Origin: a virus | Direction: 5' to 3' (one strand) | Length of the DNA stretch: 64,000 nucleotides | Virus record (IMG/VR): IMGVR_UViG_3300013132_000026 | Span: 1 to 64,000 of that record | Part shown: one piece after another, positions 5,225-59,701 of the stretch | Position numbering within the stretch: the stretch's first letter is position 1 | Layout: the number at the start of each line of letters is the position of its first letter | Notes under the pieces: model-generated | What the model was told of the DNA's origin: nothing | Seen by the model: only the letters and a program-made list of their open reading frames with translations | Database searches by the model: none | Program-made: the position numbers and the translations under genes

Positions 5225-6601
5225 ATGGCCGCGAGTAAAGAAGGTTTAATCGACAATATCAACTGCAAACTAACTGCGGGTGGACTTACGGATATGCAAG
5301 CTTCGCAGCTTGCGGGCGCGGCGCAAGCTTTGTGCTGCTCGTCATTTTATGCGGTTGCTTGTGCGGCTTGTTTGCCAAATGCGGCGCTGAATAAGGGAAG
5401 GTTCGTTTACGTTCAAGACACTGGAAGATATACATATAGTAATGGGACAAGTTGGACAAATGAGTTTTGTTCTGCTATAACAGTGGCAAATTTATGGGCA
5501 TGGGGAAATAATGGCAGCGGTCAGCTTGGAACCGGAACAACAACAAGCGCCGCCTCACCAACGACAACTGCTGGCGGCGGCACTAATTGGTGTCAAATTT
5601 CTACGGCCAGAGGTCCAACTTATAATTTCTCAGCTGGCGTAAAGACAGACGGGACTTTATGGACTTGGGGATACAATACATACGGATCGCTAGGTGACGG
5701 AACAACCACGAATCGGTCTTCGCCAGGAACAGTTGCAGGAGGCGGAAGTACTTGGTGCCTAGTAAAATTAGGAGGCCTCTCCTCGGCAGCAGTCAAGACG
5801 GACGGAACTCTTTGGACTTGGGGATATAATGGCAATGGAATATTGGGAACGGGAACAACCACGGCTCGGTCTTCGCCAGGAACGGTTGCTGGAGGTGGCA
5901 CAACTTGGAAAGATGTTTCATTAGGCGGCGGACTTTTCATTTTCAACCATGCAATGGCAGTAAAGACCGATGGAACTTTATGGACTTGGGGAATAAATGG
6001 ATATGGTCAGCTTGGAACTGGAAATACTACAGCAAGATCTTCTCCTGGCACTGTAGCTGGAGGAGGCTCAACTTGGTGTGGTGTGGCCACGACAAACCAT
6101 TACTCGGCAGCGGTCAAGACGGACGGTACGCTATGGACGTGGGGAACTAACGGATATGGTCAGCTTGGAGACGGAACAACGACGAGTCGTTCATCGCCAG
6201 GAACAACTGCTGGTGGAGGTAATACTTGGTGCGCAGTTTCAGCTGGGCAGCTATATGTGGCTGCTTTAAAAACTGATGGTACGCTATGGACTTGGGGAAA
6301 TAACGGATATGGTCAGCTTGGAGACGGAACAACGACAAGCCGTAGATCGCCAGGAACTACGGCTGGAGGCGGAACAACTTGGTGTCTTATTTGCGCTGCC
6401 GAATGTGCTATGGGTGCCGTTAAAACAGACGGAAGTCTTTGGTTATGGGGACAAAATTGTTGCGATAAATTTGGAGACGGATCATCATCAAATCGCTGTT
6501 CTCCAGTCTCTTTGGCCGCTCCATCTGGAACTTCTGGGTGGAAATCTGTAGCTCCTAGTCGTCAGTTTACTATGGGCATAGCAAACCCAACTGGATTCTA
6601 A
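5225..6601 (+). CDS. RCC1-repeat beta-propeller tail protein A
   Basis: A 458-residue protein. After about 90 N-terminal residues, which include a Cys-rich stretch ([19 protein letters not shown]) and a [16 protein letters not shown] segment like those that end phage fibres, it has seven or so repeats of about 50 residues. Each repeat carries [22 protein letters not shown] and [13 protein letters not shown]. This is the RCC1/BNR propeller signature; seven blades would close one propeller. RCC1 folds bind proteins or glycans, so a receptor-binding role is likely in this fibre cluster. It is paralogous to the genes at 6613 and 8577, with long exact DNA repeats between them. Confidence 0.85.
6069..6145 (+). 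repeat. 77-bp exact repeat between RCC1 genes, copy 1
   Basis: Identical to 7568-7644 in the next gene. It covers one propeller blade boundary ([19 protein letters not shown] and following). Many shorter exact matches link the three RCC1 genes. Confidence 0.9.
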
Positions 6602-6612
6602 TATTTAATTTC

Positions 6613-7932
6613 ATGAACGTCTCAAATTTAGAGTTAATTCTTGTTCAAAAAATTAGCAATTCAACTTCAACGTTGGATACGCTGATTTACTCTAAAGCTT
6701 TGCAAGAATTGAAGACTGGTACAATTACAGTTGTAAATACAACTGCCGATTTGCCGAATCCAAACACAGCTTTCATTGGACATTTGTTTTACGAAAAGAC
6801 TACCGAGGCAATGTATATTGTTGACAAGTTAGGCTATGCAAAAAAAATACCGATAGAAAGAAGTTTATACACTTGGGGAAATAACGGATATGGTCAGCTT
6901 GGAGACGGAACAACGACGAGTCGTTCATCGCCAGGAACAGTGGCTGGACCTAAAGCGGACTGGATTGCGGTAAGTTCTGGGCGTGTTGTAACGGCTGCGA
7001 TTAAAATTGACGGTACGCTATGGACTTGGGGGGGTAATAATGTCGGCCAATTAGGAGACGGAACAACGACGAGTCGTTCCTCACCAGGAACAGTGGCTGG
7101 AGGCGGAAGTACTTGGTGCTCGGCTTCTTCTGGTCACTGTCATACCGCTGCCGTTAAAAGCGATGGAACTTTATGGACTTGGGGATACAATTCATGGGGA
7201 ATGCTAGGTGACGGAACAACGACAAGCCGTAGATCGCCAGGAACTACGGCTGGAGGCGGAACAACTTGGTGCGCCGTAAGTGCTGGTCGTTGTTATACCG
7301 CTGCCGTTAGAACCGATGGTACGCTATGGACTTGGGGAGTAAATGGATATGGTCAGCTTGGAGACGGAACAACAACGGCTCGGTCTTCGCCAGGAACAGT
7401 TGCAGGAGCTGGAACAACTTGGTGCTTGGCTTCTTCTGGTTTCTTTCATACCGCTGCCGTTAAAAGCGATGGAACTTTATGGACTTGGGGAAATAATGGC
7501 AACGGTCGCTTAGGAGATGGAACAACCACGAATCGGTCTTCGCCAGGAACAGTTGCAGGAGCTGGAACAACTTGGTGTGGTGTGGCCACGACAAACCATT
7601 ACTCGGCAGCGGTCAAGACGGACGGTACGCTATGGACGTGGGGATACAATGCATACGGATCGCTAGGTGACGGAACAGTCACGGCTCGGTCTTCGCCAGG
7701 AACTACGGCTGGAGGCGGAACAACTTGGTGCGCCGTAAGTGCTGGTCGTTGTTATACCGCTGCCGTTAAAACCGATGGTACGCTATGGACTTGGGGAATA
7801 AATGGATATGGTCAACTTGGAACTGGAAATACGACACAGCGTTCATCGCCAGGAACAGTGGCTGGAGGAGGAACAACTTGGAGTAAAGTGAGTGCTGGAT
7901 ACTTTCATACTGCCGCGATTGGACCTCTCTAA
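6613..7932 (+). CDS. RCC1-repeat beta-propeller tail protein B
   Basis: A 439-residue protein. Its first 90 residues are unlike those of gene A: a helical start, then TTADLPNPNTAFIGHLFYE and MYIVDKLGYAKK, a pattern seen where fibres present a small beta domain. Seven RCC1-type repeats follow, ending FHTAAIGPL. The blades are nearly identical to those of the flanking paralogues, often at the DNA level, while the N-termini differ. This fits three alternative or co-assembled adhesins with separate anchors and exchangeable propellers. Only 11 bases separate it from gene A. No Shine-Dalgarno is obvious. Confidence 0.85.
   Translation: MNVSNLELILVQKISNSTSTLDTLIYSKALQELKTGTITVVNTTADLPNPNTAFIGHLFYEKTTEAMYIVDKLGYAKKIPIERSLYTWGNNGYGQLGDGTTTSRSSPGTVAGPKADWIAVSSGRVVTAAIKIDGTLWTWGGNNVGQLGDGTTTSRSSPGTVAGGGSTWCSASSGHCHTAAVKSDGTLWTWGYNSWGMLGDGTTTSRRSPGTTAGGGTTWCAVSAGRCYTAAVRTDGTLWTWGVNGYGQLGDGTTTARSSPGTVAGAGTTWCLASSGFFHTAAVKSDGTLWTWGNNGNGRLGDGTTTNRSSPGTVAGAGTTWCGVATTNHYSAAVKTDGTLWTWGYNAYGSLGDGTVTARSSPGTTAGGGTTWCAVSAGRCYTAAVKTDGTLWTWGINGYGQLGTGNTTQRSSPGTVAGGGTTWSKVSAGYFHTAAIGPL
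7568..7644 (+). repeat. 77-bp exact repeat between RCC1 genes, copy 2
   Basis: Identical to 6069-6145. Such identity over coding DNA implies recent exchange rather than selection on protein sequence alone. Confidence 0.9.
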
Positions 7933-7941
7933 TTTTTCTTT

Positions 7942-8568
7942 ATGTACGTCTTATCTTATAAAAACAGAGTCATCGCGGGACCGAGGGACTGGAACGCTGG
8001 AATGTTCACCTACGCTCTTGAGAGCGTCGGGATTCAAAAGCCAGTGCCGAGCGTCGCGCCAGCGGAGCTTCCGCTCACGATCAACGCAGATGCTAAAATT
8101 AGCGAATGCACGCTCGTTTATCCCGAGTATAATAAAAAAATCCAATATATTCACGGGCCATTCTGGGACTTTTCCAAGGACGTTACTGTTGGCACGTTCG
8201 AAGTTAAAGAAACGCCGCTCGAACTCATTCAGAACGACTTGAAGGCAATCGTTGCTGCCGAACGTTACAAGAATGAAACGGCAGGCACAAAGACGACCAT
8301 TCAAAACAAAGAAGTTACCATCGACACGACTCGCGGAGCGCGAGACATCTTTGCGCAAAAGTATTTGTTGATGACCGATAACGAAACTGTTAACTGGAAG
8401 TTTCCAGAGGGCTGGCTCACGCTCACAAAGCCCGAATTGGGCCAAATTGTGAATGCGGCAGTTGCGCACATTCAAAGCAAATTCGATTGGGAAAAGAACA
8501 AGAGTGCCGAGATTAACGCCGCTACAACTGGCGCACAACTCGACGCGATTGTATTAACAGAAGAGTAA
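7942..8568 (+). CDS. DUF4376-type tail fibre assembly protein
   Basis: A 208-residue protein whose C-terminal 110 residues match what I know of DUF4376: an internal [12 protein letters not shown] helix and a final [20 protein letters not shown] helix ending [10 protein letters not shown]. Members lie beside phage fibre genes and are presumed assembly factors. The N-terminal half ([22 protein letters not shown]) is a separate small domain; a similar start occurs in fibre-linked proteins of aquatic phages. It lies between two RCC1 genes with 9-base gaps, so it probably serves those adhesins. Confidence 0.75.
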
Positions 8569-8576
8569 ACTTTAAA

Positions 8577-9938
8577 ATGGCGCTTCTTAACACAGGATGT
8601 TTAATCTCAACGATTCAGGCAGACGTGACCGGAATAACAACTGGTTATGCGGCGGAATGCTTTGCGGTGCTTGCTGCTGCCGTTGATAGCGCAACGCAAG
8701 ACCGTTGCGTTACTGTACCAACGAGCGGTTCGTTGCCGAGCCTTTATCCTACGCAAACAATTCCGCAAGGCCAAGTGATGTTTGTGGAGGATGTGGGCGT
8801 TCCTGTAATCGCGGCGAGTGGAAAGTGGATAGGGTTCGACCAGAGAGCGTTTAGATATGACTTCCCAACAAAAACATTATATACTTGGGGGTGCGGTAAT
8901 GCGCTTGGAGTCGGAGCTAATACAAGTCGATCCTCACCTGGAACAACGGTTGGCAATATCGTAACTTGGAGTTCTGTATCTGCTGGGCAAGATGCAGCCG
9001 CTGGAATTAAAACTGACGGTACATTATGGACTTGGGGCGTTGGAAATTATGGCATGCTGGGAAATGGAGCGGGGTATACGACAAATTCTCCAGGAACAAC
9101 TGCTGGAGGCGGAACTAACTGGTGTCGAATTTCAGTAGGAAGCGCTCATATGGCAGGCATCAAAACTGATGGCACCCTATGGACTTGGGGATATAATGGC
9201 AGTGGTCAGTTAGGAACTGGAAATACAACATCTCGTAACTCTCCTGGTACAGTCGCTGGAGGTGGATCAACGTGGTGTCAGGTTTCGGCGGCAAGAGCTT
9301 ACACTGTAGCTGTAAAAACAGATGGTACATTTTGGAGTTGGGGGGCAAATGGATATGGTCAACTCGGGAACGCGACAAATACAAATCGATCATCGCCTGG
9401 GACTCTCTCTGGAGGTGGAACTATATGGTGCAAGGCTATTGCTAGTAGTATGTCGTGTCATACCGCTGGATTAAAAACAGACGGGACAATTTGCACTTGG
9501 GGGGCGGGTGGATATGGAAGATTGGGAGGTGGCTCAACAGCTAACATAAACGCACCAAGCGCTGTTTCTGGAGGCGGAACAACTTGGTGCGATGCAGCTG
9601 TAGGATCTAATTTCACTGTGGCGTTAAAAAGCGATAATACTCTTTGGACTTGGGGACATAATGGATATGGAACATTGGGAACGGGAACAACCACGAATCG
9701 GTCTTCGCCAGGAACAGTGGCTGGAGGCGGAAGTACTTGGTGCTCGGCTTCTTCTGGTCTCTCGCATACCGCTGCCGTTAAAACCGATGGAACTTTATGG
9801 ACTTGGGGCTGCAATGGCAACGGTCGCTTAGGAGATGGTACAACAACTAATAGATCGTCTCCTGGCACAACAGCGGGCGGAGGTACGACTTGGAGTGCAG
9901 TTGGCGCTGGTCAACTTTATTCTCTAGGCTTAAGATAA
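8577..9938 (+). CDS. RCC1-repeat beta-propeller tail protein C
   Basis: A 453-residue protein with a third distinct N-terminus: an [20 protein letters not shown] helix, then [21 protein letters not shown], a beta segment like those of the other two. Seven RCC1-type blades follow, more diverged than in A and B in the central part ([31 protein letters not shown]) but almost identical in the last two blades. It probably forms one propeller and binds a receptor. It is the last gene of the fibre cluster. Confidence 0.85.
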
Positions 9939-20274: not shown

Positions 20275-23200
20275 ATGGCAAAAGGAATCCAAGTACCCGT
20301 AACGCAGACTGGGCTAAGTCAGTCTATTAATCAAGCCGTTAAGAAAGTAGGGCCGATTAATGTACCGATTAACGTCAATCCCAATGCGTTCAAGAACCTT
20401 TCACAGCCACTTGGTAGAATCACGGGTCTTGCCAGCGAGTTTGAAAAGTCAATTGCGGCGTCTAATGCGCGTGTTATCGCATTCGGCGCGTCAGTAGGTA
20501 TCATCAATGGCTTTCAGAACGCCCTTTCTCAACTTGTAAAAACGGGCATTGAAGTTCAAAAAACTCTTGCCGATATTTCTGCTATCAGTGGGGCAACTGG
20601 CGTTGAGCTTTCTAAGCTCGCAGATGGTATTTTCGATGTTGCCAAAAATACGGGTCAGTCATTCAAAACGGCATCTGAAGCTGCACTAGAGTTTTCTCGC
20701 CAAGGTTTGGCGTTAGAAGAAACGATCAAGAGAACAAACGATGCGTTAACACTGAGCCGCTTTACTGGTTTAAGCGCAGCCGATTCGGTAGATACTCTAA
20801 CTGCCGCATTTAACTCGTTCCAAGAGTCTGGAGTCACTACGGCAGAAATTCTGAATAAGTTAGTCGCAGTTGACTCGGCTTATGCAGTTTCTGCTGCTGA
20901 CCTTGCAAAAGCTATTTCTCGCGTAGGTTCAGTAGGTATCGAGGCTGGCGTTTCGCTAGATGAACTTAATGCTGCGGTAACGGCAGTTCAGCAGAGAACT
21001 GCGCGTGGTGGTGCAGTTATTGGTAACGCATTCAAGACGATTTTTACAAACCTTAGATCCGAGAATGCGATCAAGGCTTTGCGCGATATTGGAGTAGAGT
21101 CTCTTGACCTTCAGGGAAATTTAAAGCCTTCGCTACAAGTTATTAAAGAACTTGCGGTCGCCGTGCAAGGTTTAGGAGAGGGTGAACGTGTTCAGATTTT
21201 AGAAACGATCGCTAGTAAGTACAACATTAACATTTTGTCTGCACTTATTGGCGATTTGACGGATAAGCAGAGTGCATTTACTGGAGCGCTGGAAAAGAGC
21301 GCCAATGCAGCGTCAGAAGCTTACGATAGACAAAAGCAGTTAAACGAAACTTTGGCGGCGGCGATTAACAATACGACCGTTTCCGTAACGCAACTTTTCA
21401 ACAAGCTCTCAGAAATTGGAGTAAACGAAAATCTAACTGCGCTGCTGAAGTTTGTAAACGATTTACTATCTGGTTTCAATAAGCTGCTCGACTCTGAAAG
21501 CGTCGGCGGAAACATTGCGAAGGGTTTGATCAAGGGCATCAGCGATGTATTTTTCACCGTTGGTCTTCCAATCATTGCGGCCATCTTCGTAAAACTGACT
21601 CGCGATATTGCTCAGTTCGGTATCGAGTCTTTAAAAACTATTCTCGGAATCAATCAACAGGTGCGCGAGCGTCAGGCTCTTGAACAAGCCGTAGTAAATA
21701 CGCTAATTAAAGATCAGCAAGTAATGGCTACGATTCTTGCTCTGAGTGGAGACAGGGCAAAGCAAGAGCAGTATTTACTTAATGTTTACAATCAGCAGAT
21801 TGCCGCACTACAAAAGGTTCAGAGCATCGCACAATCTGTTGCTCCTGCTCTTCAAGGCGCTGGACTTAGCGCGACATCTGGTCAAGTTCGCAGACGCGCA
21901 GCTGGTGGTTATCTGCCAAGTCAAGAAGCCTCCGATGTTCGTCGCGGTGTTGGCGGCGCAAGTCCATCCTCAAAAGTAGTTTCGATTCCAAATTTCGCAT
22001 TTGGCGGCGGTAAGCACGGGACAATGATCGCCAATACGAGCGAGTATATTGTTCCTAATTTTGCGAACGGTGGGTCGGCAATCTTTAATCCTGATATGGT
22101 TAAGGCTTATGGATTGCCAGCGGGAGCCAAGAAGATCAATGCGTCTGGCGGCTATGTCCCGAATTTTGCTAGATATGTTTATGATGCTGACCGTATCGTA
22201 GCAGATAAAAATGCCTTATTAAAGGCAATTTTAGCTTCTAGAGCGAAAAAGAATTTGATTGTCGGACCAGCCGGAGCCGGTAAAAGTACTTATGGCGGAG
22301 GGCTTGGATCGTTCATAACGAACGTTGCTCAACTAGGCGATGCTACTGAAATTGATATTTTATCTAGCGCGGGCAGAACAAAGGAGGGGGGATTTTCGAA
22401 AAATTTCCAAGAACTTGTAAACGCCGTAAACGTTTCTGGAGGCAAAGTTTCTTATCTATATGCTAGTAATATGGATATCCTTTCTCGCCGCTATGGAAGA
22501 ACAGAAAATGCTATTCAAGAAGGAGATTTGAGAAGTAAAAAGCAAATTGTAGGCACAATTTATGCGCCATTAAATCAATTTGACTTTATTTCAAAGATGA
22601 AAGGAAGTTCTAAAAACTTCCAGATGACTCGCGGATCTGGCGGCTTTATTCCAAATTTTGTAAATGAGCTACCCGGTAAAACGCCTGCATATAGTCAGCC
22701 AAAAACTAAACCAAAAGGTTCTAATTTAGATTCAGTTACAGTAGACGCAAGATGGTCGGGAGGAGCAGTTATGCTTTTGCCGTCCAGCAAGCAAAGACAG
22801 AAATTTTTAAAGCAAGGATACAGTACAGCGCCAAGTGCAAACGTAAGCAAAAAGGAAGTTCTACCTGATGGGAGAAGAATTTCGGGTGTTCTTTTTGATG
22901 CTTTCGCTGTAATACCAAGTGAATTAAAAAGTAGAAGTGGACAAGAAATTGCAAATATTGAAGAACGAGTTAAAAAGGTTGTTTATCAAACTGGATCTGA
23001 AATAATAGCAGATTTTGATCCACTACAAAGACCGCAAGTAGGAGCAGATGAGTTTGCAAGAGTATATGATAAAAAAGGTGGTGCCGCTGGTGCCGCATCC
23101 GCAGTTGCTGGATCGATTTTTGAAGCTGCCGTTGACTATGCATTAAATCCACAAAAAGCAACGAATGTACAAAGTACGCTCGATGTTCCTAGGTTATCAC

Positions 23201-26200
23201 CAGAATTAATTAAAGCCTTTGGAATTACCACTCCTTATGGAACATCGTCTGGAGGCGATTATAAAATTAGTGCCGAGAGAGCACAAGCGTTTGCAGACCA
23301 AATTATTAGAAATAAAGTGTATCAGCCGCCAGCTCCAAAAGCTGCTGCGTCTACTGGTTACGTTCCAAATTTTGCGAAACAATCGGCGCTTTCTGATGCT
23401 ATCGGACGTGAAATTGGCGCTGGAGTTAATCCAAGCCAAATCCGAGTCACGCAAGACGGAAGACTCAGAAACTCGCAAAATCCAAATGGCCTTGCAGTAA
23501 TCAACACAAGAGACGAGCCAAACGGAAAAGTTCCAAACTTTGCCAGAGAAAGATATGCCGCTGGAGAAATTGTAAATGGGAAAAAGGTTGGTGGACAGTT
23601 TAAACCAGCATCGGCAGCTTCTGGTCGGACCGCGAGTGCAACTACGCCACTAACAGATCAAACTGCAAAATTGTTTTTGGCATTTTCTGGACTAACTCTT
23701 GTTTCTTCGACTCTACAATCAACATTCAAAGATACTGAATCTAGTATAGCTAAATTCGCCACTGCAACATCTAATGTTGTTCAAACGCTTTCAAGTGGTG
23801 CGCTGCTTGGTAATTTAGTGCAGCAAACTGGATTGTCTGGTTTGGCTAAAAGAGGAGGTGTTCTTGGAAGTGTTGGACGTATAGCTGGAAATGCTGGAAT
23901 AATTGGCGCAATCGGTGGCGCTGGTATAGGTATTTATCAAGAAATTCAGGCAGCAAGAGAAGCGGAACGTCAACGACCAATTTTAGCTGGAGAAGAAGGA
24001 GCTGGTCGTAGAATCGCAGATATCGCCGCTCAAGAAACCAATCCTGAGTCAATCAGAGAACAGCTACTTAAAGATTTCCAAGCTGGACAAGCAGAATTTG
24101 AAAGAATTCAAGCTCAATTACAACAAGGAAGCGAAAGAGCTGCGGCGGCTCGGCTTAATGTCGCCGCTTTTGGAACTGGTGGAGAATTCGACCCACAGCT
24201 TCAAGAAAATGTAAAATTTTTAGAAGAAAGAAAAAAACTGGAAGAAGAGCTTAATACTTTACTGGGAGGTCAGCAAAAATTTTTGCAACAAATTGGAGCA
24301 ACGACAAATGATATAGAAAATGCTGCCAAGAGAAAAGAAAAATTAGAAAAAGAAGCGAATACCGAAGCTGAAAGACGCATAAATCTAGAGCAGGCTTTTG
24401 AAAAAATTGCTTTATCTATTTTAAAGGGCGATAATGAACGTTTGAAAGCGCGTGCGCAAATTGCCGCGCAAGATATTAAAAATGCAGCCAATCTTAATAG
24501 TTTTCAAAAACAAGAATTAGAGTTTAATAGAAAAATTCAAGACTTTGAAGAAGAGTCAACGCAGAAGCAAAGAGACCTTTTAAATTTAACTGTTCAGCAG
24601 TTAATTAAGGGCGGAAGTTTAGCGAGCGTAACTGAAGAACAAGCGAATAGGCTCAAGCAGATACTTGAAAGTGGAACAGAAATTGCCGATAACTCGCAAT
24701 TAATTGCAGATCTTGGAATTAAAAATGCAACTGTAGTTAATGAAGAAATTGAAAAAGTATCGAACAAAATAGCTTTGCAAAAGGAAGAGACTCGTGGGCT
24801 AATAGAGCGTTTTTCAATTACTCAAAGAGCCTCAATTGAGGCGTCTAAACAGTTAGGTTTTATTGAAGCTCAAACAAGAGCTTTAAATGCTCAAGCTGAA
24901 ACTGCAAGGGAAATTGAAATAATAGAAGCTAAAAGAAGTCGCTTAAGATCGGGAAAGGCTCAAGAATTAAATATTGAAAATATAAGATCAGGTATAGCGA
25001 CAAGAGGCATAGCTTCTCCGACGCAAACTAGACAGCTTCTAGAAGCTGAAAAAAATCTTAATTTTGTAACTAAAAGAAATAATGTAGAAGAAACTTATAG
25101 GCGCTCTCAAGAAGAAGGCTTTAACGCTTTAAGAAATGCATATATTGAACAAGTAAATGGTTCTGAATTCATATCTGACGCAGAGCAAAAACGGGCGGAA
25201 AGTTTATTGCAATCAGCTAAAACAGCAGAAGATTTACAAAAGATTTATGCTGCATTTGACCCTAGTTTTTCTGGAATTGGGACAAACGAAAATCGAGCAT
25301 TAGAATATCAATTGTCTTTATTTGAACAGTCAAAAGCTATATTAGAAGAAAGAAAAAAAATAATAGACGCTAATATAAGTTTATCGAAAGAGGAAAGAGA
25401 CCTCGAAATTCAAAAGCTAAATATTGAAATTAAGCGCAGAGATCGCGTATTAGAAATTGCGAAAATCAGAGAAAGCTCTAGGCTAAAAGCTGGGGTTGCT
25501 ACCGCGCTTGACGACTTAGAGGCTGAATCAGAAAACTTTTATGAAACACTCGGCAACAGAACTACAATAGCTTTTAGGGATGGCTTAACAGACGCATTGA
25601 GTGCGGCTATTTCTCAAACTGACGATCTTGGTGATGCGCTGCAAAATGTTGCGCGTAATTTCTTGCAGACGATTCAGCAGGCATTTTTGCAACAAGCTTC
25701 GGGGCAAATTGTGCAGTTAATCGGAAAGAGCTTCAATTTTGCCAATGGTGGAATCGTAAAAAAATACGCTGGAGGCGGAAAGGTAGTTGGAGGAAGCGGC
25801 TATAAAGATGACGTTCCAGCGATGCTCACAAGCGGAGAGTTTGTGATGAGAAAGTCTGCCGTGCAGAAGTATGGCATGGAAAATCTTGAAAGAATGAACA
25901 ACGGCGGGATCTTCCTGCCCGGTGTTCGTGGCGCTGGTGCAATCTCTGGCTACGGCGACATCACAAAGTTCGCAAAGCAGACAACTACTAGCGGCGCAAC
26001 AGACGTTATGATGGGCGGCGCGTCTTCGGCATTCATTAACCTTGAAGATCAAAGCGCAAGGCTTTCTCGTTTTGGACTTCTAAACGAAGATACGATTAAT
26101 CAAGAAATTAGAGCGGCACAAGAACAGGGCTTAAATCTTATTAGAGAAAGAGAAGCTTATAGAACGGCACAGAGAAAAGCGTTCCAGCAACAGCTGGTTA

Positions 26201-26850
26201 GCACTTTAGCTTCTGCCGCAATAAGCTTCGGAGTTGGAAAATTGACCGCTCCAAAGGTAACGGGCCTTCCCGCATCTTTATCAAAAACAGGAACTCCATT
26301 TGCTGCAAACGCTGGCCCAGCATCATTTGGCAATGTCGCTTTATTAAAGGGCGCTCCAATTAAATTTAGTGGCGGAATTGGTTCATTTATGAATCCAGTT
26401 GGCGCAAAGCCAATTCCATTTCGTGCTTATGGTGGATTGATGCGCCGCTACGCTGCTGGAGGTCCAACTGACGACATTCCTGCTCTATTGATGGGCGGCG
26501 AATATGTCATGAGCCGTCAATCGACGCGCAAATACGGCAAGCAGTTCTTCGATGCGATGAACCAAGGTAGAGCGCCAAGATTCGCAGAAGGCGGGGTGGT
26601 CGGTGGAGCTAACGGAACTGAACTTGGGGATAAGTTTGACAAGCTCTCTACCAAACTCGAAACGACCGCAGCTTCGAACATTAGCATCAACATTAATGTC
26701 ACGAACGGCGGATCGTCAGAAACTCAAACTCAAGGCGACACGAATCGCGGCGGCATCGATTACAAGAAGATGGGCGATCAGATTCGCCAAGTTGTTATCC
26801 AAACGATCAACGAAGAAAAACGCCTCGGTGGTTCACTGAGAAGTAGATAA
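20275..26850 (+). CDS. Tail tape measure protein with embedded P-loop and nuclease-like modules
   Basis: A 2,191-residue tape measure. Residues about 45-450 are the TP901-type core (QKTLADISAISGATGVELSKL, then a TGLSAADSVDTLTAAFNSF helix). Residues 1843-1868 and 2066-2090 hold the two classic C-terminal motifs (DDVPAMLTSGEFVMRKSAVQ, DDIPALLMGGEYVMSRQSTR). The centre is unusual. Six (I/V)PNF(A/V) motifs begin at residues 571, 593, 628, 792, 1030 and 1086. Between them lie a Walker A loop GPAGAGKST (664-672) in a 160-residue module and a 230-residue module with IFEAAVDYAL (E950) and GGDYK (D995, K997), loosely like a PD-(D/E)XK nuclease. A long charged coiled coil follows at about 1200-1790. 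DNA from about 22.2 to 25.6 kb looks more AT-rich than its flanks. The protein sets tail length and is ejected with the genome, so the modules could act in the host; this is inference. Confidence 0.9.
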   Translation: MAKGIQVPVTQTGLSQSINQAVKKVGPINVPINVNPNAFKNLSQPLGRITGLASEFEKSIAASNARVIAFGASVGIINGFQNALSQLVKTGIEVQKTLADISAISGATGVELSKLADGIFDVAKNTGQSFKTASEAALEFSRQGLALEETIKRTNDALTLSRFTGLSAADSVDTLTAAFNSFQESGVTTAEILNKLVAVDSAYAVSAADLAKAISRVGSVGIEAGVSLDELNAAVTAVQQRTARGGAVIGNAFKTIFTNLRSENAIKALRDIGVESLDLQGNLKPSLQVIKELAVAVQGLGEGERVQILETIASKYNINILSALIGDLTDKQSAFTGALEKSANAASEAYDRQKQLNETLAAAINNTTVSVTQLFNKLSEIGVNENLTALLKFVNDLLSGFNKLLDSESVGGNIAKGLIKGISDVFFTVGLPIIAAIFVKLTRDIAQFGIESLKTILGINQQVRERQALEQAVVNTLIKDQQVMATILALSGDRAKQEQYLLNVYNQQIAALQKVQSIAQSVAPALQGAGLSATSGQVRRRAAGGYLPSQEASDVRRGVGGASPSSKVVSIPNFAFGGGKHGTMIANTSEYIVPNFANGGSAIFNPDMVKAYGLPAGAKKINASGGYVPNFARYVYDADRIVADKNALLKAILASRAKKNLIVGPAGAGKSTYGGGLGSFITNVAQLGDATEIDILSSAGRTKEGGFSKNFQELVNAVNVSGGKVSYLYASNMDILSRRYGRTENAIQEGDLRSKKQIVGTIYAPLNQFDFISKMKGSSKNFQMTRGSGGFIPNFVNELPGKTPAYSQPKTKPKGSNLDSVTVDARWSGGAVMLLPSSKQRQKFLKQGYSTAPSANVSKKEVLPDGRRISGVLFDAFAVIPSELKSRSGQEIANIEERVKKVVYQTGSEIIADFDPLQRPQVGADEFARVYDKKGGAAGAASAVAGSIFEAAVDYALNPQKATNVQSTLDVPRLSPELIKAFGITTPYGTSSGGDYKISAERAQAFADQIIRNKVYQPPAPKAAASTGYVPNFAKQSALSDAIGREIGAGVNPSQIRVTQDGRLRNSQNPNGLAVINTRDEPNGKVPNFARERYAAGEIVNGKKVGGQFKPASAASGRTASATTPLTDQTAKLFLAFSGLTLVSSTLQSTFKDTESSIAKFATATSNVVQTLSSGALLGNLVQQTGLSGLAKRGGVLGSVGRIAGNAGIIGAIGGAGIGIYQEIQAAREAERQRPILAGEEGAGRRIADIAAQETNPESIREQLLKDFQAGQAEFERIQAQLQQGSERAAAARLNVAAFGTGGEFDPQLQENVKFLEERKKLEEELNTLLGGQQKFLQQIGATTNDIENAAKRKEKLEKEANTEAERRINLEQAFEKIALSILKGDNERLKARAQIAAQDIKNAANLNSFQKQELEFNRKIQDFEEESTQKQRDLLNLTVQQLIKGGSLASVTEEQANRLKQILESGTEIADNSQLIADLGIKNATVVNEEIEKVSNKIALQKEETRGLIERFSITQRASIEASKQLGFIEAQTRALNAQAETAREIEIIEAKRSRLRSGKAQELNIENIRSGIATRGIASPTQTRQLLEAEKNLNFVTKRNNVEETYRRSQEEGFNALRNAYIEQVNGSEFISDAEQKRAESLLQSAKTAEDLQKIYAAFDPSFSGIGTNENRALEYQLSLFEQSKAILEERKKIIDANISLSKEERDLEIQKLNIEIKRRDRVLEIAKIRESSRLKAGVATALDDLEAESENFYETLGNRTTIAFRDGLTDALSAAISQTDDLGDALQNVARNFLQTIQQAFLQQASGQIVQLIGKSFNFANGGIVKKYAGGGKVVGGSGYKDDVPAMLTSGEFVMRKSAVQKYGMENLERMNNGGIFLPGVRGAGAISGYGDITKFAKQTTTSGATDVMMGGASSAFINLEDQSARLSRFGLLNEDTINQEIRAAQEQGLNLIREREAYRTAQRKAFQQQLVSTLASAAISFGVGKLTAPKVTGLPASLSKTGTPFAANAGPASFGNVALLKGAPIKFSGGIGSFMNPVGAKPIPFRAYGGLMRRYAAGGPTDDIPALLMGGEYVMSRQSTRKYGKQFFDAMNQGRAPRFAEGGVVGGANGTELGDKFDKLSTKLETTAASNISININVTNGGSSETQTQGDTNRGGIDYKKMGDQIRQVVIQTINEEKRLGGSLRSR

Positions 26851-27620
26851 TGAAATCATCGATCTCAAATTATGAAAACAGTCTATATCTCAGTGGCCTC
26901 AAGATCTTTGGGGTCACAGATACAAACTTTGGCTACTCGCTTCCCGTTGAGCACATCAACGTAATCGGCAATTCAAAGTTCGCGACGTTCACGAACGGCG
27001 CACCACAGTCGTCACTCAGCGTTCAAAAATACCTTTCGAAAGACGACTTTTTGCTGAGAATGACTGGCGAAGGTCCGATTAGCGGCGGCTTATTCTACAA
27101 TAATAAGAATTTTTCCTTTCGTTCAGCTTATTTGAATTCTTATTCGGTATCGTGCGCAGTTGGCAACTTCCCGAATCTTAGCGCAGACTTTTCCGTATTT
27201 GGCGACATTGGTACAGGATTGGCCCAGTCAACGTCGGGTGAAACGGGCAAACTAAGCGTCATTAGACCCGCCGATATCCTCATCGAATGCGATGGTAGCG
27301 GGTCGAACCGAATCGAGGCGTTTACCTACTCTCTTGAGTGCGCCAGACAAGCTTTCTATCATCCAACGGGTTCGGCTCCGATGGACGTGGTGACTCAAAA
27401 GCCATTCCGAGTAACGGCGCAGTTCACGATTGCGATAGATGACTACGAATCGAAAAGACTTTTCGATTATGTTGTAGATTCGAATAAAAGAAACGTTAGT
27501 ATAACAGTAGGTTCGTTAGCTACGTTTACAATGGCAAATATGGAGCTTCTCAGCGAAACGGTCAACAGCACAGCAACGGACGACCTTGTGCTGACGCTTA
27601 ACTATCAAGGATTCATCTAA
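26850..27620 (+). CDS. Tail tube-like paralogue
   Basis: A 256-residue protein that starts on the last base of the tape measure stop. It shares with the major tail protein a NSYSVSCAVGNFPNLSADFSV segment (compare TNYSVEAAVGGLPTVSVSV), a following SVIRPADILIECDG strand (compare LRPGDITLEL) and an IEAFTYSLECARQAFYHP segment (compare IQSFSIEIPVGRTTLQRL). It therefore probably has the tube fold. Next to the tape measure, a distal tail or tail tip ring role is likely. No membrane or enzyme motif is present. Confidence 0.6.
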   Translation: MKSSISNYENSLYLSGLKIFGVTDTNFGYSLPVEHINVIGNSKFATFTNGAPQSSLSVQKYLSKDDFLLRMTGEGPISGGLFYNNKNFSFRSAYLNSYSVSCAVGNFPNLSADFSVFGDIGTGLAQSTSGETGKLSVIRPADILIECDGSGSNRIEAFTYSLECARQAFYHPTGSAPMDVVTQKPFRVTAQFTIAIDDYESKRLFDYVVDSNKRNVSITVGSLATFTMANMELLSETVNSTATDDLVLTLNYQGFI

Positions 27621-28585
27621 TGTCATTCCTTTACGATAGAGACCAAAACGTAACTGGAACGATTCCGCCGTCGTTCACTTTCAAACCGTCTTACGGAACG
27701 ACCGTTTCGTTCAACGCTGACCTTTCGCAGTACGAGACGACCGACAATTATATCTATACGATGCCAAAGGGCGCGAATCATTTGCAACTAGAGTTTGCGA
27801 TGAATTTCGACAACAGAAAAGAAGAAGAGGCGCGTCAGATCTTAGGTTTCTTCGAAAGCTTGAACGGCACTGGCTACTTTCAGTATACGGACCCAGCGGG
27901 CATCTACAAACCGATCAATTTGTTCACGAACGACTTTACAAATTCGTTCGACAAAAATGATTTGCACTCGATCACCGCAAATCTGAATTCGGACCAGTTT
28001 TCAAGTCTGCTCAACTGGAACAATCCTTTTTTAGCTCAAACCGCCAATGTTAAAGGGGACTGGGCTACTAGCACCTCTTATCTCGAATACGACGTAGTGA
28101 GATACACGGGAAACGCAACATATCCAAGTAACACGGGCAACCTATACGACTCATTTTACTACTGCACTGGAGACCACACTTCAGACGCGAGCTTCAGCGC
28201 GTCAAATATGAACAACGATAAGTGGACTCGCGACTTCTTCTTCCAGCCAACTTACTCGTCGCAAATCCAAAAAGAGACCGCAGTTGTAAAAACGCAGCTA
28301 CCTTACTCGTACACGAAGCGCACAGACTTTGGCCTGCACTCGAACACGATAAAGTCTTTCAATCTAGAGTTCAAGGGAGTTTCGGATAAGGAAGCGCGAT
28401 GCATCTTGCACTTCTTGATCTCGAAACAGGGTTTTCGCCGCTTTCAATACAAGTTCCCAAAGATCTACAATCAGAACAAATACTTCTTCGCGACAACTTG
28501 GTCGCACACGATGGTTTACAAGGACGTTAACGATATTTCGATAACGATTCGCGAAGACCCGTTAGGCGTTAGGAAATCATACTAA
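27620..28585 (+). CDS. Minor tail protein, lambda gpM-like, with inserted CBM-like module
   Basis: A 321-residue protein that looks like a duplicated gpM-type domain. Copy one has NHLQLEFAMNFDNRKEEEARQILGF, then GTGYFQYTDPAG; copy two has IKSFNLEFKGVSDKEARCILHF, then GFRRFQYKFPK. Both show beta strand, helix and aromatic strand in the same order. Between them, about residues 145-210, lies GDWATSTSYLEYDVVRYTGN and YCTGDHTSD...W, resembling carbohydrate-binding modules of family 5/12 that bear surface aromatics. gpM-like proteins sit at the tail tip, so this insert may contact host glycans. The gene abuts both neighbours. Confidence 0.6.
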   Translation: MSFLYDRDQNVTGTIPPSFTFKPSYGTTVSFNADLSQYETTDNYIYTMPKGANHLQLEFAMNFDNRKEEEARQILGFFESLNGTGYFQYTDPAGIYKPINLFTNDFTNSFDKNDLHSITANLNSDQFSSLLNWNNPFLAQTANVKGDWATSTSYLEYDVVRYTGNATYPSNTGNLYDSFYYCTGDHTSDASFSASNMNNDKWTRDFFFQPTYSSQIQKETAVVKTQLPYSYTKRTDFGLHSNTIKSFNLEFKGVSDKEARCILHFLISKQGFRRFQYKFPKIYNQNKYFFATTWSHTMVYKDVNDISITIREDPLGVRKSY

Positions 28586-34224: not shown

Positions 34225-35322
34225 CTAAACCTTTGCCAGAACGTCTCTTATATGAGTCAAAGTGTTCGCGTAAGTGAGTTTTTGACCCAACGCAACGCCA
34301 GCGTCGTTCTTCTTACCAGATAAGGTAAGCTCAACAGCCTTTTCGATAGCAGCTACGGCAGCATCGTCCGAGAAATCGTAAATGTTGCCTTGGTTAAAGT
34401 CGGAACCTTTCTTGAAGAAAGTCCCGTCATAAGCCTCGATTTTGCCCGTTGACTCAACGAGGATAGAGTTATCCTTGGTCGCCCAGTCTTTGTGGCTCGT
34501 AGCGTTCAGTACGATGCTCCACTTGCCAAGGCAAGTTGCGTTGAACGCAGGAAGACCCCAACCTTCTGCGCCGCTAAGACCAGAGAGGTCAATATCGGCA
34601 GAGTTAATGATGTCGTTGACTTCGGCGTTCGTCGCGACGAAAGGCAGGAAGTTGATATTTGAAGCGAGGCTCTTGTAGCCCATTACCATCTTCTTCATCA
34701 GTTCCTTGTCGAGAAACGGATTCATAACCGAGCAACTAAGTTGGAACTTTGGATTGTTGCCGTACTTCTTTGCCCAGAGCTTAATGATCTTGTCCGTATG
34801 CTTGCGCTTTTCGAACTTGCCCATCAGCAAGAAGTGAGTCTTTCCCTCAAGATACTTTTTATTCGTTTTAAAGAAACTCGGATCGAAACCAAGCGGAGCA
34901 GAGTACACGTTAGCGCACCCGTTGCTTACGAACGAGTCTCTAGCATACGAGCTAGAGAAGATCGTCGCGTCTTGAAGCGCAACTATTGCATTTTCTACAA
35001 CAGTTGGCTGATCGAGTTCATAAAACGAAAACAGTACTTGCTTTTTCGTGAGACGCTTCTCGGCTCCGTTAATGTGCCAAAGCTTCAAAGACACTGCATC
35101 CTTAGAAAGATCTCTGTACCGATTGTCGATTAGACTTTTGATCCAATCGACAAACTCGGCGTCTTTCTTATCGAACGCAGACAGGTCTACGTTCGAGATC
35201 GGAAAGTACGAAACCTTAAAGGACGAGTCGCTTTGCTGGAGCTTGTAAAGCTCTTTGAGAATGTTATACGCAACATTCCCAAACGACACTTGGTTTAACG
35301 GAGCTTCGAAGACAACGTGCAT
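34225..35322 (-). CDS. Glycosyltransferase, GT4-like
   Basis: A 365-residue GT-B protein. The C-terminal domain begins THFLLMGKFEKRKHTDKIIKL (acceptor-to-donor strand), continues INFLPFVATNAEVNDIINSA and carries GAEGWGLPAFNATCLGK, the E-x7-E-like region where GT4 enzymes bind the donor sugar and diphosphate. An N-terminal VVFEAPLNQVSFGNVAYNIL is the first Rossmann loop. It would extend a glycan from a nucleotide sugar. It lies in an operon with SSB, sigma factor and dUTPase, an unusual place for a sugar gene. Its ATG overlaps the SSB stop. Confidence 0.75.
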   Translation of the reverse strand: MHVVFEAPLNQVSFGNVAYNILKELYKLQQSDSSFKVSYFPISNVDLSAFDKKDAEFVDWIKSLIDNRYRDLSKDAVSLKLWHINGAEKRLTKKQVLFSFYELDQPTVVENAIVALQDATIFSSSYARDSFVSNGCANVYSAPLGFDPSFFKTNKKYLEGKTHFLLMGKFEKRKHTDKIIKLWAKKYGNNPKFQLSCSVMNPFLDKELMKKMVMGYKSLASNINFLPFVATNAEVNDIINSADIDLSGLSGAEGWGLPAFNATCLGKWSIVLNATSHKDWATKDNSILVESTGKIEAYDGTFFKKGSDFNQGNIYDFSDDAAVAAIEKAVELTLSGKKNDAGVALGQKLTYANTLTHIRDVLAKV

Positions 35323-54983: not shown

Positions 54984-57398
54984 ATGAATAAAGTGCAACA
55001 AATCAACTTCACTCCTAGGGCAACGCGGGCGCTAGAAATCTCCAAGCAGCGCTGTTTGGAGAATAACTATCATGAGATTACCGAAGACTTTTTGCTCCAC
55101 GCAATTTTGTTTTCCGAATCAATGATTGTTAATACGGTGTTTAGCGCCTTAAATATTCATACTAAACAAGTTGTGATTGCGCTATCGAAGACACTTCCGT
55201 CAAATAAAAAGAAACTGCCAAGCTCAGATATTCCGTTTGGTTCCGTCTCTGCCGAGGTTATTAAAAACTCTCAAATTATTTCTGAAGCGTTTAAGCAAAA
55301 CTATACTGGCGTAGAGCATATCTTTTTATCGCTTTTGAGGCACTCTGAACTTGTAAAAAAGTTCTTAAAAAAGAACTCGATTGACGTTGGCTTCTTGACA
55401 GATAAAACGGAAAAAGAGTGCGAACTCATTTCGAATCCGATTAAAAAGCCCGCGCCGCCTCAGTCTGACAGAACTAGCAACGAAAGCTTAATTTCATCTC
55501 ACTGCGTAGACTACAATGAAAAAGCTTCCAAGGGAGAATTTGACCATATATCTTTTCGCGAAAAAGAAGTCGAGCAGATGTTTGAAATCCTTTGTCGCAA
55601 GCAAAAGCGGAATCCGATGCTTATCGGAGATGCTGGAGTAGGCAAGAGTGCCGTTGTAGGGCTAATCGCAAAAAACATCATTTCGTGCAATTGCACAGAG
55701 TTTCTTTTGAATAAGAAGGTTTTATCTCTTGATCTTGGGGCTCTTATCTCTGGCACAAGGCTTCGCGGCGAGTTTGAAGAGAAGCTTGTAAAAATTATGA
55801 CGGAAATCAAAGCTATGGGCAATGTAATTTTGTTCATTGACGAGATTCATAATATTATTGGACTCGGCAATGACGCGGGTCAAATGGACGGAGCGAATAT
55901 CCTAAAGTCCTATTTTACTGCCGAAGACCTTTCGTTTATCGGGGCGACAACGCAACAAGAATACGACAAGTACTTTGCGAAAGACTCGGCTATGTCTCGG
56001 CGCTTCGAGAACGTCTTTGTTCGTGAGCCAACTAAAGACGAGACTTTCGGCATTTTGAAGAACGTGAAATCATTCTATCAGACGTTCCATATGATCGAGT
56101 ATCCAAATTCGGTCCTGATGAACATCGTTAATGTTTGCGATAAGTATATGCCAAATAGACGCTTCCCAGATAAGGCTATTGATCTTCTCGATCAGATCGG
56201 AGCTAAAGTTAAAATTCGAGGTTTTGCGCGTCCAGACGAAATTAAAAACATTGAAAAACTAATCATTCAATTCGAAAAGTTTGCTCCCGATGACGTGAAG
56301 AAAAACCACTTGCCTAACTTAATAAGAGATTACGAATCAAAATACAATGTCTGGGTAGAAGCCGCTAAGGAAAAAAAGGTTCGAGCGAAGAAGAAAGACG
56401 TTTACAAGGCTTTGTCAGATAAGCTCGGCAAAGTCATTGACTCAAATTCTGACAACGACGGAATCAAGAATATTTACAGCAACCTGCAAAAGCACGTCTT
56501 TGGACAAGACAAGGCTTTAAAGAAGATTTCCGATTGTATCTTGCGTTCATCATTTGGCTTGTCAAAGAATAGTCGCCCGCTTGGGAATTTTATGTTTATT
56601 GGCCCAACTGGCTCAGGAAAGAGTCATTTGGCTCGAACGCTAGCGAAACAGGCTTTCGGGAGCGATTCTAATCTTTGCGTAATAGATATGTCAGAGTTTA
56701 TGGAAAGTCATTCGGTTTCGAAACTGATTGGCGCTCCCCCCGGTTACGTTGGGTGTAATCAAGTAAGTGTTTTAACCGCTCATTTAACTCGCCACCCATC
56801 GTCAGTATTTCTTTTTGACGAAATCGAGAAAGCTCACCCAGACATAGTTAATGTTTTGCTCCAGATCATGGATAGCGGACAACTCACAACTTCTGACGGG
56901 GAAAAGCTTTCGTTTAAAAATTCAATCATCATTATGACCGGAAACGTTGGCTATCAAATCAACGATAATAAACGAATGGGTTTTATGGCGACTGCTCAAT
57001 CAACGCCTACAAAAGATACTGTTCTAGAAAGCTTAAAGAAGTTCTTCCGCCCAGAATTCTTGGCCCGCTTAAATGATATTGTTATTTTCGACGAACTTAG
57101 CGAAGAATCGCTGATCAAAGTGGTCGAATCCGAGTTTTCCCAGATTCAAGCATCGCTGCTTGAGAGCGGAACGAAAGTTTCTTTCTCGCCGGAAGTTATC
57201 GACTTTATTTTGCAGAAAACAAAAGATTCTAGCACGGGAGCAAGAAAAATCGTTTTTTACGTCGAAAATGAGATCAAAACCAAAATTGTAGACATCTTGC
57301 GGGCAAATACATACAATAAAATCAAGATCTCCATTAAAGACGGAGAGTTGACCATCAATGGAAAAACGAAGAAACTTCTTGCGACACACAGTATCTAG
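54984..57398 (+). CDS. ClpA/ClpC-like AAA+ unfoldase
   Basis: An 804-residue Hsp100 protein. The N-domain starts INFTPRATRALEISKQRC (repeat N). D1 has Walker A GDAGVGKS (215-222) and ILFIDEIHNIIG. D2 has Walker A GPTGSGKS (540-547) and VFLFDEIEKAHPDIV. Only a short linker stands where ClpB has its long middle domain. KRMGFMAT (665-667 MGF) lies where ClpA and ClpC carry the IGL/F loop that docks onto ClpP. It may unfold proteins for host ClpP or act alone. It ends the polymerase operon, 2 bases after dnaE. Confidence 0.85.
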   Translation: MNKVQQINFTPRATRALEISKQRCLENNYHEITEDFLLHAILFSESMIVNTVFSALNIHTKQVVIALSKTLPSNKKKLPSSDIPFGSVSAEVIKNSQIISEAFKQNYTGVEHIFLSLLRHSELVKKFLKKNSIDVGFLTDKTEKECELISNPIKKPAPPQSDRTSNESLISSHCVDYNEKASKGEFDHISFREKEVEQMFEILCRKQKRNPMLIGDAGVGKSAVVGLIAKNIISCNCTEFLLNKKVLSLDLGALISGTRLRGEFEEKLVKIMTEIKAMGNVILFIDEIHNIIGLGNDAGQMDGANILKSYFTAEDLSFIGATTQQEYDKYFAKDSAMSRRFENVFVREPTKDETFGILKNVKSFYQTFHMIEYPNSVLMNIVNVCDKYMPNRRFPDKAIDLLDQIGAKVKIRGFARPDEIKNIEKLIIQFEKFAPDDVKKNHLPNLIRDYESKYNVWVEAAKEKKVRAKKKDVYKALSDKLGKVIDSNSDNDGIKNIYSNLQKHVFGQDKALKKISDCILRSSFGLSKNSRPLGNFMFIGPTGSGKSHLARTLAKQAFGSDSNLCVIDMSEFMESHSVSKLIGAPPGYVGCNQVSVLTAHLTRHPSSVFLFDEIEKAHPDIVNVLLQIMDSGQLTTSDGEKLSFKNSIIIMTGNVGYQINDNKRMGFMATAQSTPTKDTVLESLKKFFRPEFLARLNDIVIFDELSEESLIKVVESEFSQIQASLLESGTKVSFSPEVIDFILQKTKDSSTGARKIVFYVENEIKTKIVDILRANTYNKIKISIKDGELTINGKTKKLLATHSI

Positions 57399-59246: not shown

Positions 59247-59701
59247 TTAAATTTTATAAGCCCAACAAGTCAAACACTGGAACAGCATTATCTTTTAATG
59301 TTGTTCAGCGTCAAAAAGAGGGAGACGATAAGGGTCTCGACCTCTATGTTAGTTTTGTAAAGCAAGCTTCTTGGAACGAACAGAGTCGTAAAGGCTCATT
59401 TGCCGAGAACGCAAAGAATCCAGAAAAGACAGCTTCGCTAAAGCTGAACGAGACAGAAGCGGCGACGATCATTCGCGCTATTCGTCTCGGCACGAAGTTC
59501 TCGACAGTTCATGCGTATCAAGGCGCGACAACGTCGATCATGTTTGGCCCGTATCAAAAGAAGAACGGCGACCATGCGTTTTCGTTCTCTATCAAGAAGG
59601 GTGAACAGTCTTTTTTGATCGGCTTCGAACTCGGAGAGGGCGAGCTTGTCGCTCAGTTCCTTGAGAATTATTTGGCTCAATCGTTCGCCGTATCAGAATG
59701 A
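59240..59701 (+). CDS. Putative ssDNA-binding protein, Whirly/PC4-like
   Basis: A 153-residue beta-rich protein: MRLKFYKPNKSNTGTALSF, KGLDLYVSFVKQASWNEQSR, EKTASLKLNETEAATIIRAI, and MFGPYQKKNGDHAFSFSIKK, then IGFELGEGELVAQFLENYL. I know a similar family in phages and archaea, believed to fold like Whirly or PC4 and to bind ssDNA, but cannot verify the match. The hairpin over its start codon suggests control of its own synthesis, as some ssDNA-binding proteins have. It overlaps the next gene by 4 bases. Confidence 0.55.
   Translation: MRLKFYKPNKSNTGTALSFNVVQRQKEGDDKGLDLYVSFVKQASWNEQSRKGSFAENAKNPEKTASLKLNETEAATIIRAIRLGTKFSTVHAYQGATTSIMFGPYQKKNGDHAFSFSIKKGEQSFLIGFELGEGELVAQFLENYLAQSFAVSE

Follow-up and report, generated by a model that had tools for sequence, protein, structure and literature searches.

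Why would a phage build folded, enzyme-like domains into the protein that measures its tail? Tape measure proteins (TMPs) are generally regarded as rulers and membrane conduits, and a length ruler has no need of such domains. The question is raised by a 64,000-nt stretch of viral DNA (positions 1 to 64,000 of IMG/VR record IMGVR_UViG_3300013132_000026, here called the window), for whose TMP a preliminary description had proposed a modular cargo array set between PNFA motifs. We found that the modules of this array are swapped between related phages while the motifs stay, and we hold the exchangeable array to be real with near certainty. The cargo role draws on what is known of TMPs in general, and in our judgment the array is probably best explained overall as a modular, exchangeable payload built into the phage TMP.

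The TMP of the window is of the TP901 type and has 2191 residues. It matched TIGR01760 (tape_meas_TP901) over aa 80–406 with E=9.1e-36 and 123.6 bits (curated cut-off 28.8), PF10145 with E=6.3e-27 and many tape-measure PHROGs; YomI-type TMPs matched it solely over about aa 50–440. The gene lies in a tail-gene neighborhood, with a minor tail protein (phrog_14, E=1.7e-16) encoded downstream at 27620–28585; the ORFs upstream carried no assignment.

All six motifs claimed for aa 571–1090 were present (Table 1). From the composition of the TMP, 0.003 occurrences of [IV]PNF[AV] are expected by chance, and never more than two appeared in 20,000 shuffles; a search of the window in six frames with the wider pattern [IVLM]PNF[AVSK] returned these six sites and no others. 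Over 433 distinct instances the consensus was A-[AS]-x-G-[YF]-[IV]-P-N-F-A, in which the search pattern itself dictates P and N. In an AlphaFold model of the array, pLDDT fell below 50 at model residues 168–193 and 403–411, stretches that include or border on motifs 4 and 5, indicating that folded domains are flexibly joined at the motif. Neither of the two outcomes that the preliminary description had named as refuting it was observed: the array region was modeled as folded alpha/beta domains rather than as coil, and the Walker A loop follows a beta strand (see below). The model supports PNFA as a conserved inter-domain seam, in agreement with the linker role suggested at the outset; for the suggested cleavage site the evidence speaks neither way. 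The motif was also considered as a recombination site at the DNA level, and the codon-usage test showed no sign of this: across the 433 instances its codons were ordinary and took several synonymous forms, which leaves no site conserved in the DNA. We read the seam as a protein feature.

When the whole TMP was compared with IMG/VR, 13 loci were found. A DNA pattern for the motif alone (A-x-G-[YF]-[IV]-PNFA), blind to TMP identity, matched at least 120 stretches. Among the matches listed there were 79 open reading frames (ORFs) with PNFA, 74 with two or more motifs and 58 with four or more; 48 of the 49 that bore an N-terminus fit the TMP N-terminus profile, and the median position of the first motif was aa 571. 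With a peptide pattern applied later, matches rose to 578 stretches, of which some are unconfirmed. The TMPs of the relatives, all of which are metagenomic, are mostly 2170–3090 aa long and vary in the number and order of inter-motif segments. A tblastn search of 50,697 cultured phage records with the P-loop, HAD-like and last modules gave no match. In about 85,000 prokaryote genomes the last module was found at four loci, all in metagenome-assembled genomes (MAGs), and therefore none points to a reliable host. Two of the four contigs, L171 and L172 of a Halobacteriovorax MAG, encode TMPs that reach 5001 aa and contain at least nine PNFA-type motifs; this is probably the largest of the arrays observed. 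Judged from these sequences, the array is a family-wide trait of uncultured phages and not peculiar to the window.

Exchange of cassettes at the motif

Aligning related TMPs revealed modules that had been exchanged between retained PNFA motifs. Between the window and locus L001, identity was 85% over the N-terminal 540 residues, 77% in the P-loop module and 82% in the last module, and only 32% in the nuclease-like module. Loci L035 and L036 likewise shared 98% identity in the P-loop module and 91% in the last module against 29.5% in the nuclease-like module. The opposite pattern was found between L036 and L040, where the P-loop (91%) and last (90%) modules are far more alike than the N-terminus (42%) and C-terminus (26%) of the proteins that carry them.

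Two pairs of sister phages showed the exchange directly. The DNA of L003 and L006 is 96–97% identical on both sides of the array, over 7.7 kb and 8.5 kb, and the module sets differ: one array reads P-loop, nuclease-like, second nuclease-like, HAD-like and F7, and the other has a different nuclease-like module, another nuclease-like core, HAD-like and F7. Homology ends at nt 7698 and restarts at nt 9470, and motifs lie at 7682–7696 and 9476–9490. In the pair L042/L177 the P-loop cassette is cleanly missing from L177, in frame, between stretches of 96.8% and 97.3% identical DNA. Module order differs as well: in L035, L036, L045 and L047 the P-loop module comes after the nuclease-like one, the reverse of the window.

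The ends of high-identity matches (281 in 120 pairs) fell inside the 15-nt motif in 43% of cases, compared with 5% at random positions, and within 20 nt of a motif in 86.5%, compared with 17.5%; these ends are not mutually independent, and local alignments may drift by some bases. Pairs whose backbones are more than 95% identical are evidence of exchange in their own right. On these alignments, the gain, loss, reordering and in-frame replacement of cassettes between phages are shown.

Base composition was rejected as a sign of acquisition. The array had been described as more AT-rich than its flanks, and codons 721–960 indeed have 36–41% GC, compared with 43–51% in codons 1–640; however, the coiled-coil region of the same TMP (codons 1361–1760) is lower still, at 35–38%.

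Putative activities of the modules

The Walker A loop GPAGAGKST was found as claimed. In the AlphaFold2 (AF2) model of the P-loop module, where pLDDT is mostly 85–97, the loop lies between strand 35–41 and helix 47–54 (model numbering), an order that marks a genuine P-loop. A scan of IMG/VR located homologues in 34 viral loci, and P665, G667, G669, K670 and T672, together with R738, R739, R742, D751 and R753, are invariant in 29 P-loop modules. A comparison with kinases and Zeta toxins had been proposed. The nearest PDB folds in Foldseek were adenylate kinase (E=0.007), PNKP (E=0.04) and shikimate kinase (E=0.08), all above E=0.001, and the structure search returned no Zeta toxin match. The Pfam family AAA_30 matched with E=0.002, below its cut-off, and a profile search of PDB sequences found generic P-loop ATPases alone (best E=0.002). 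The model weakly resembles nucleotide and polynucleotide kinases, and the module may be a small-molecule or polynucleotide kinase without an assigned family. Outside any TMP, a short ORF at 8980–9358 of locus L048 is 38% identical to the P-loop module, lacks a clear start codon ahead of Walker A and found no match in the 50,697 cultured phage records; it is either a stand-alone gene or a fragment.

The second domain had been called compatible with a PD-(D/E)XK core on the basis of E950, D995 and K997. These residues are present, and our analysis added D970, which completes an E-D-(D/E)xK tetrad. Across 58 homologous sequences, position 950 is E in 54 and D in 4, position 970 is D in all, position 995 is D in 35 and E in 23, and position 997 is K in all, so that the catalytic set E...D...(D/E)xK of PD-(D/E)XK enzymes is found in 58/58. 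Few other columns are equally conserved (G946, and F949 at 91%). The sequences themselves are highly divergent, with a median pairwise identity of 20% and 46 clusters below 50%. Retention of the tetrad at this level of identity points to selection on an active site and argues for catalysis by the module. An isolated AF2 model (pLDDT 85.1, pTM 0.79) places E950 (model E154) in a helix and the DxK at a strand. No PD-(D/E)XK structural neighbor was found; we therefore term the module nuclease-like, and its PD-(D/E)XK fold is unproven. The same 76-residue core recurs in other modules (F9 and relatives; hhalign 96.9%, E=1.7e-10), so that two or more nuclease-like cores can be present in a single TMP.

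The third, small module noted earlier for its REIGAGVNPSQIRV segment belongs to a near-universal family of 72 members, 54–77 aa long, which closes most arrays and has invariant NP-G, V-N and DEP; in other phages it is replaced by a second family, M6. Further module classes were recognized in relatives from sub-threshold or motif evidence, with the exception of a HIGH nucleotidyltransferase-type module in L122, the best supported of all (Pfam HIGH_NTase1_ass, 1.4e-7, above the cut-off). The HAD-like phosphatase modules fall into three divergent types that retain DxDxT, T, K and D; the protein-kinase-like modules, one of them in L192, have an invariant glycine loop, VGVKK, E, DxHGxN and D. A GHKL ATPase module in L082 matched HATPase_c_3 at 8.5e-5, below the cut-off, and a GNAT match in L114 was weak (0.02). 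By eye alone we assigned an ART-like module (L110), an HExxH zincin-like module (L082) and more kinase-like modules (L075 and L110). All 17 HAD-like loci and all 6 kinase-like loci fall in PNFA-bearing ORFs, and neither profile retrieved anything relevant from PDB sequences. Significant curated-domain matches in Pfam were few in the relatives, and there were none in the modules of the window. Given the sequence signatures of the array, its modules are likely active enzymes.

Two of these modules deserve separate mention. A 576-aa module in L082 (TMP aa 961–1536) and L112 joins a GHKL ATPase signature to a C-terminal HEAAH zincin-like motif, and is possibly an internal peptidase. In L122 the module after aa 1064 has a second P-loop followed by the HIGH nucleotidyltransferase (GAFAPFTKGHADM). 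This order recalls NAD-salvage enzymes, and the module could bear on NAD-depleting defenses.

Proposed delivery of the modules and rival explanations

How would such modules reach their site of action? The TMP of SPP1 is discharged upon receptor binding, before the DNA, and in the antifeeding prophage (AFP) a toxin fills the tube lumen in the TMP's stead (PMC8718954). During lambda injection a proximity reporter fused to ManZ, an inner-membrane protein, labels the TMP, which also associates with the defense nuclease SNIPE (PMC13190303). TMPs pack the tail tube and pass into the envelope and inner membrane ahead of the DNA or together with it, so that entry of the modules into the cell is the most likely outcome. 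We propose an array of two to eight or more modules that fold independently, each closed by a PNFA seam, set between a conserved N-terminal tape-measure part (about aa 1–570) and a helical C-terminal part. The modules would enter the cell with the TMP and be at work within minutes of infection, as enzymes of host takeover, counter-defense or competitor exclusion, and a cassette swap would bring a new payload with the tail unchanged. Catalytic constraint, fast turnover and TMP entry taken together make delivered payload the best reading, and delivery with early action seems to us somewhat more probable than its opposite. A hydrophobic segment precedes the array at aa ~400–435 in 27/27 other TMPs examined by Kyte-Doolittle analysis, and a second follows within about 230 aa of the array in most; it is possible, though speculative, that this topology keeps the modules on a single side of the membrane.

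Several points weigh against a delivered payload. The activity of the modules and their attachment to the packaged TMP are putative. Folded modules of 160–290 residues must either unfold or fit a tube of ~40 Å. The structure matches of the P-loop module to kinases were all sub-threshold, Foldseek found no significant match for the nuclease-like module in PDB or BFVD, and the modules of the window had no confident match in Pfam, NCBIfam, PHROGs or PADLOC.

The modules might instead serve the producing cell, cut from the TMP at PNFA late in infection and never entering the next cell, so that the TMP gene would be an expression vehicle. We consider such a polyprotein unlikely. The motif does resemble a protease site, being highly conserved over its 433 instances (upstream G, Y/F, downstream A) in exposed, low-confidence linkers, and lambda gpH and some other TMPs undergo processing; however, no protease could be connected with the array, TMPs are made late, at a stage where takeover functions bring little benefit, and a plain linker explains the structural data equally well. 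It is also quite unlikely that the modules serve as folded spacers or in tail assembly, have no enzymatic role and keep their catalytic-looking residues as relics. They do lie within a structural protein, and the missing database matches of the window modules would fit, but the four catalytic-type positions are chemically invariant in all 58 nuclease-like sequences despite their divergence, and sister phages whose flanking TMP parts are 98% identical bear different module sets, so that the tail depends on no particular module. The module-free TMP lengths of L003 and L006 are 2064 and 2061 aa and their total lengths are 212 aa apart, which argues against a mere ruler role of the modules, although this constancy holds between sisters alone: among 43 complete TMPs, module-free length was as variable as total length.

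A hypervariable nuclease-like module on a conserved carrier also suggests a weapon of the polymorphic-toxin kind, killing competitors or the host while a cognate immunity gene protects, and Sle1-type effectors of contractile injection systems (CIS) do combine TMP-like carriers with exchangeable toxin domains (PMC13277306). Against this, the flanks of the swapped L003/L006 arrays are unchanged, so no adjacent immunity gene swaps along, and the modules are internal, not C-terminal; we judge the weapon highly unlikely, and rejected membership in the polymorphic toxins because of these near-identical flanks. Selfish mobility, with homing driven by the nuclease-like module and motif DNA as the target, would account for breakpoints on motif codons and for the nuclease-like module being the commonest, yet those codons offer no conserved DNA site, and cassettes without nuclease motifs (P-loop, F7) also move. 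Its probability is very small. Smaller still is that of an assembly or chance artefact: all sequences are metagenomic, but the frames run uninterrupted for 2–3 kaa, identical TMPs came from five different samples, and the same rule holds across dozens of unrelated contigs for a motif hardly expected by chance.

The delivered payload has partial counterparts among known systems. Polyvalent proteins (Iyer et al. 2017, PMC5512222), which are the nearest functional concept by analogy, also unite disparate domains (kinase, nuclease, NTase and peptidase types) in one polypeptide and are predicted to be co-injected with DNA. At the level of sequence signatures the array likewise places domains of disparate activity in one polypeptide, but here the carrier is a tail ruler, and the one motif that closes each module is also where the exchange breakpoints lie; the terms "tape measure," "PNFA" and "linker" do not occur in the text of PMC5512222. 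The nearest analogue of the carrier is the Sle1-type effectors of actinobacterial CIS (PMC13277306), where a TMP-related carrier bears diverse, experimentally swappable domains, one acting on nucleic acids. Those effectors belong to bacterial CIS, with a single variable C-terminal domain, a partner (Sle2) and no punctuating motif reported in the passages considered, in contrast to the internal, multi-module phage array. Membership in this group was rejected, as the array is internal and no sheath-like match was found among the tail ORFs scanned. Enzyme domains are also fused into TMPs with cell-wall enzymes (the SPbeta YomI transglycosylase, mycobacteriophage TMPs), but these target peptidoglycan and open the envelope, whereas the array has intracellular-type signatures, many modules and cassette exchange. 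Smug et al. (2023, PMC10684548) found TMPs over-represented in sequence-based mosaicism and thinly covered by domain databases; the passages considered do not describe an array, a motif or enzyme-type modules. No earlier description of motif or array was found in the open-licence literature.

A wider reading, to which we give an even chance, is that of a clade-wide TMP delivery chassis, in which any PNFA-framed domain would be carried in the tail and delivered, drawing on a stock of recombining effector cassettes that phage populations keep in common (nucleases, kinases, phosphatases, NTases and GHKL ATPases). Such a stock would be a virion-borne counterpart of polymorphic toxin and defense islands. 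If the payload is real, one gene sets both tail length and injected enzyme content, one cassette swap reprograms the first strike of a phage, and many unannotated enzymes of early infection are hidden in genes labeled "tape measure." What besides DNA enters through a siphophage-type tail becomes a testable question, with a pointer to modular protein delivery: L003/L006 and L042/L177 are natural sister pairs that differ almost solely in TMP payload.

Feature map and neighboring genes

Table 1. Features of the TMP and its module array, with positions in the window in nt.
Feature	Position	Strand	Basis
Tail tape measure protein	20275..26850	+	TIGR01760, PF10145, PHROGs
TP901 tape-measure domain, aa 80–406	20512..21492	+	TIGR01760
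Hydrophobic segment, aa 421–439	21535..21591	+	Kyte-Doolittle scan
Motif 1 IPNFA, aa 571–575	21985..21999	+	Motif scan
Motif 2 VPNFA, aa 593–597; closes short segment IANTSEYIVPNFA	22051..22065	+	Motif scan
Motif 3 VPNFA, aa 628–632; cassette boundary, DNA breakpoint in sister phages	22156..22170	+	Motif scan, alignments
P-loop module (kinase-like), aa 633–796	22171..22662	+	AF2, homologues, presence/absence cassette
Walker A GPAGAGKST, aa 664–672	22264..22290	+	AF2 strand/helix position; conservation in 29 modules
Motif 4 IPNFV, aa 792–796; low-pLDDT linker starts here	22648..22662	+	Motif scan, AF2
Nuclease-like module, E-D-(D/E)xK tetrad, aa 797–1034; hypervariable between phages	22663..23376	+	58 homologues, AF2
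Putative active site: E950 (23122–23124), D970 (23182–23184), D995 (23257–23259), K997 (23263–23265)	23122..23265	+	Conservation, 58 sequences
Motif 5 VPNFA, aa 1030–1034	23362..23376	+	Motif scan, AF2
Small conserved last module, aa 1035–1090, REIGAGVNPSQIRV...NPNGLAVINTRDEPNG	23377..23544	+	72 members
Motif 6 VPNFA, aa 1086–1090	23530..23544	+	Motif scan
Glycine-rich hydrophobic stretch (aa ~1190–1215), then long helical region, motif-free; approximate bounds	23545..25749	+	Sequence, composition

Elsewhere in the window, three proteins with RCC1-like repeats (PHROG 4219/7220) are encoded at 5225–9938, upstream of the tail genes. A phage-encoded ClpA-like ATP-dependent protease lies at 54984–57398 (phrog_4871, E=4.6e-191), and two glycosyltransferase-like ORFs (phrog_2170) were found at 34225–35322 (−) and 59698–61599 (+).

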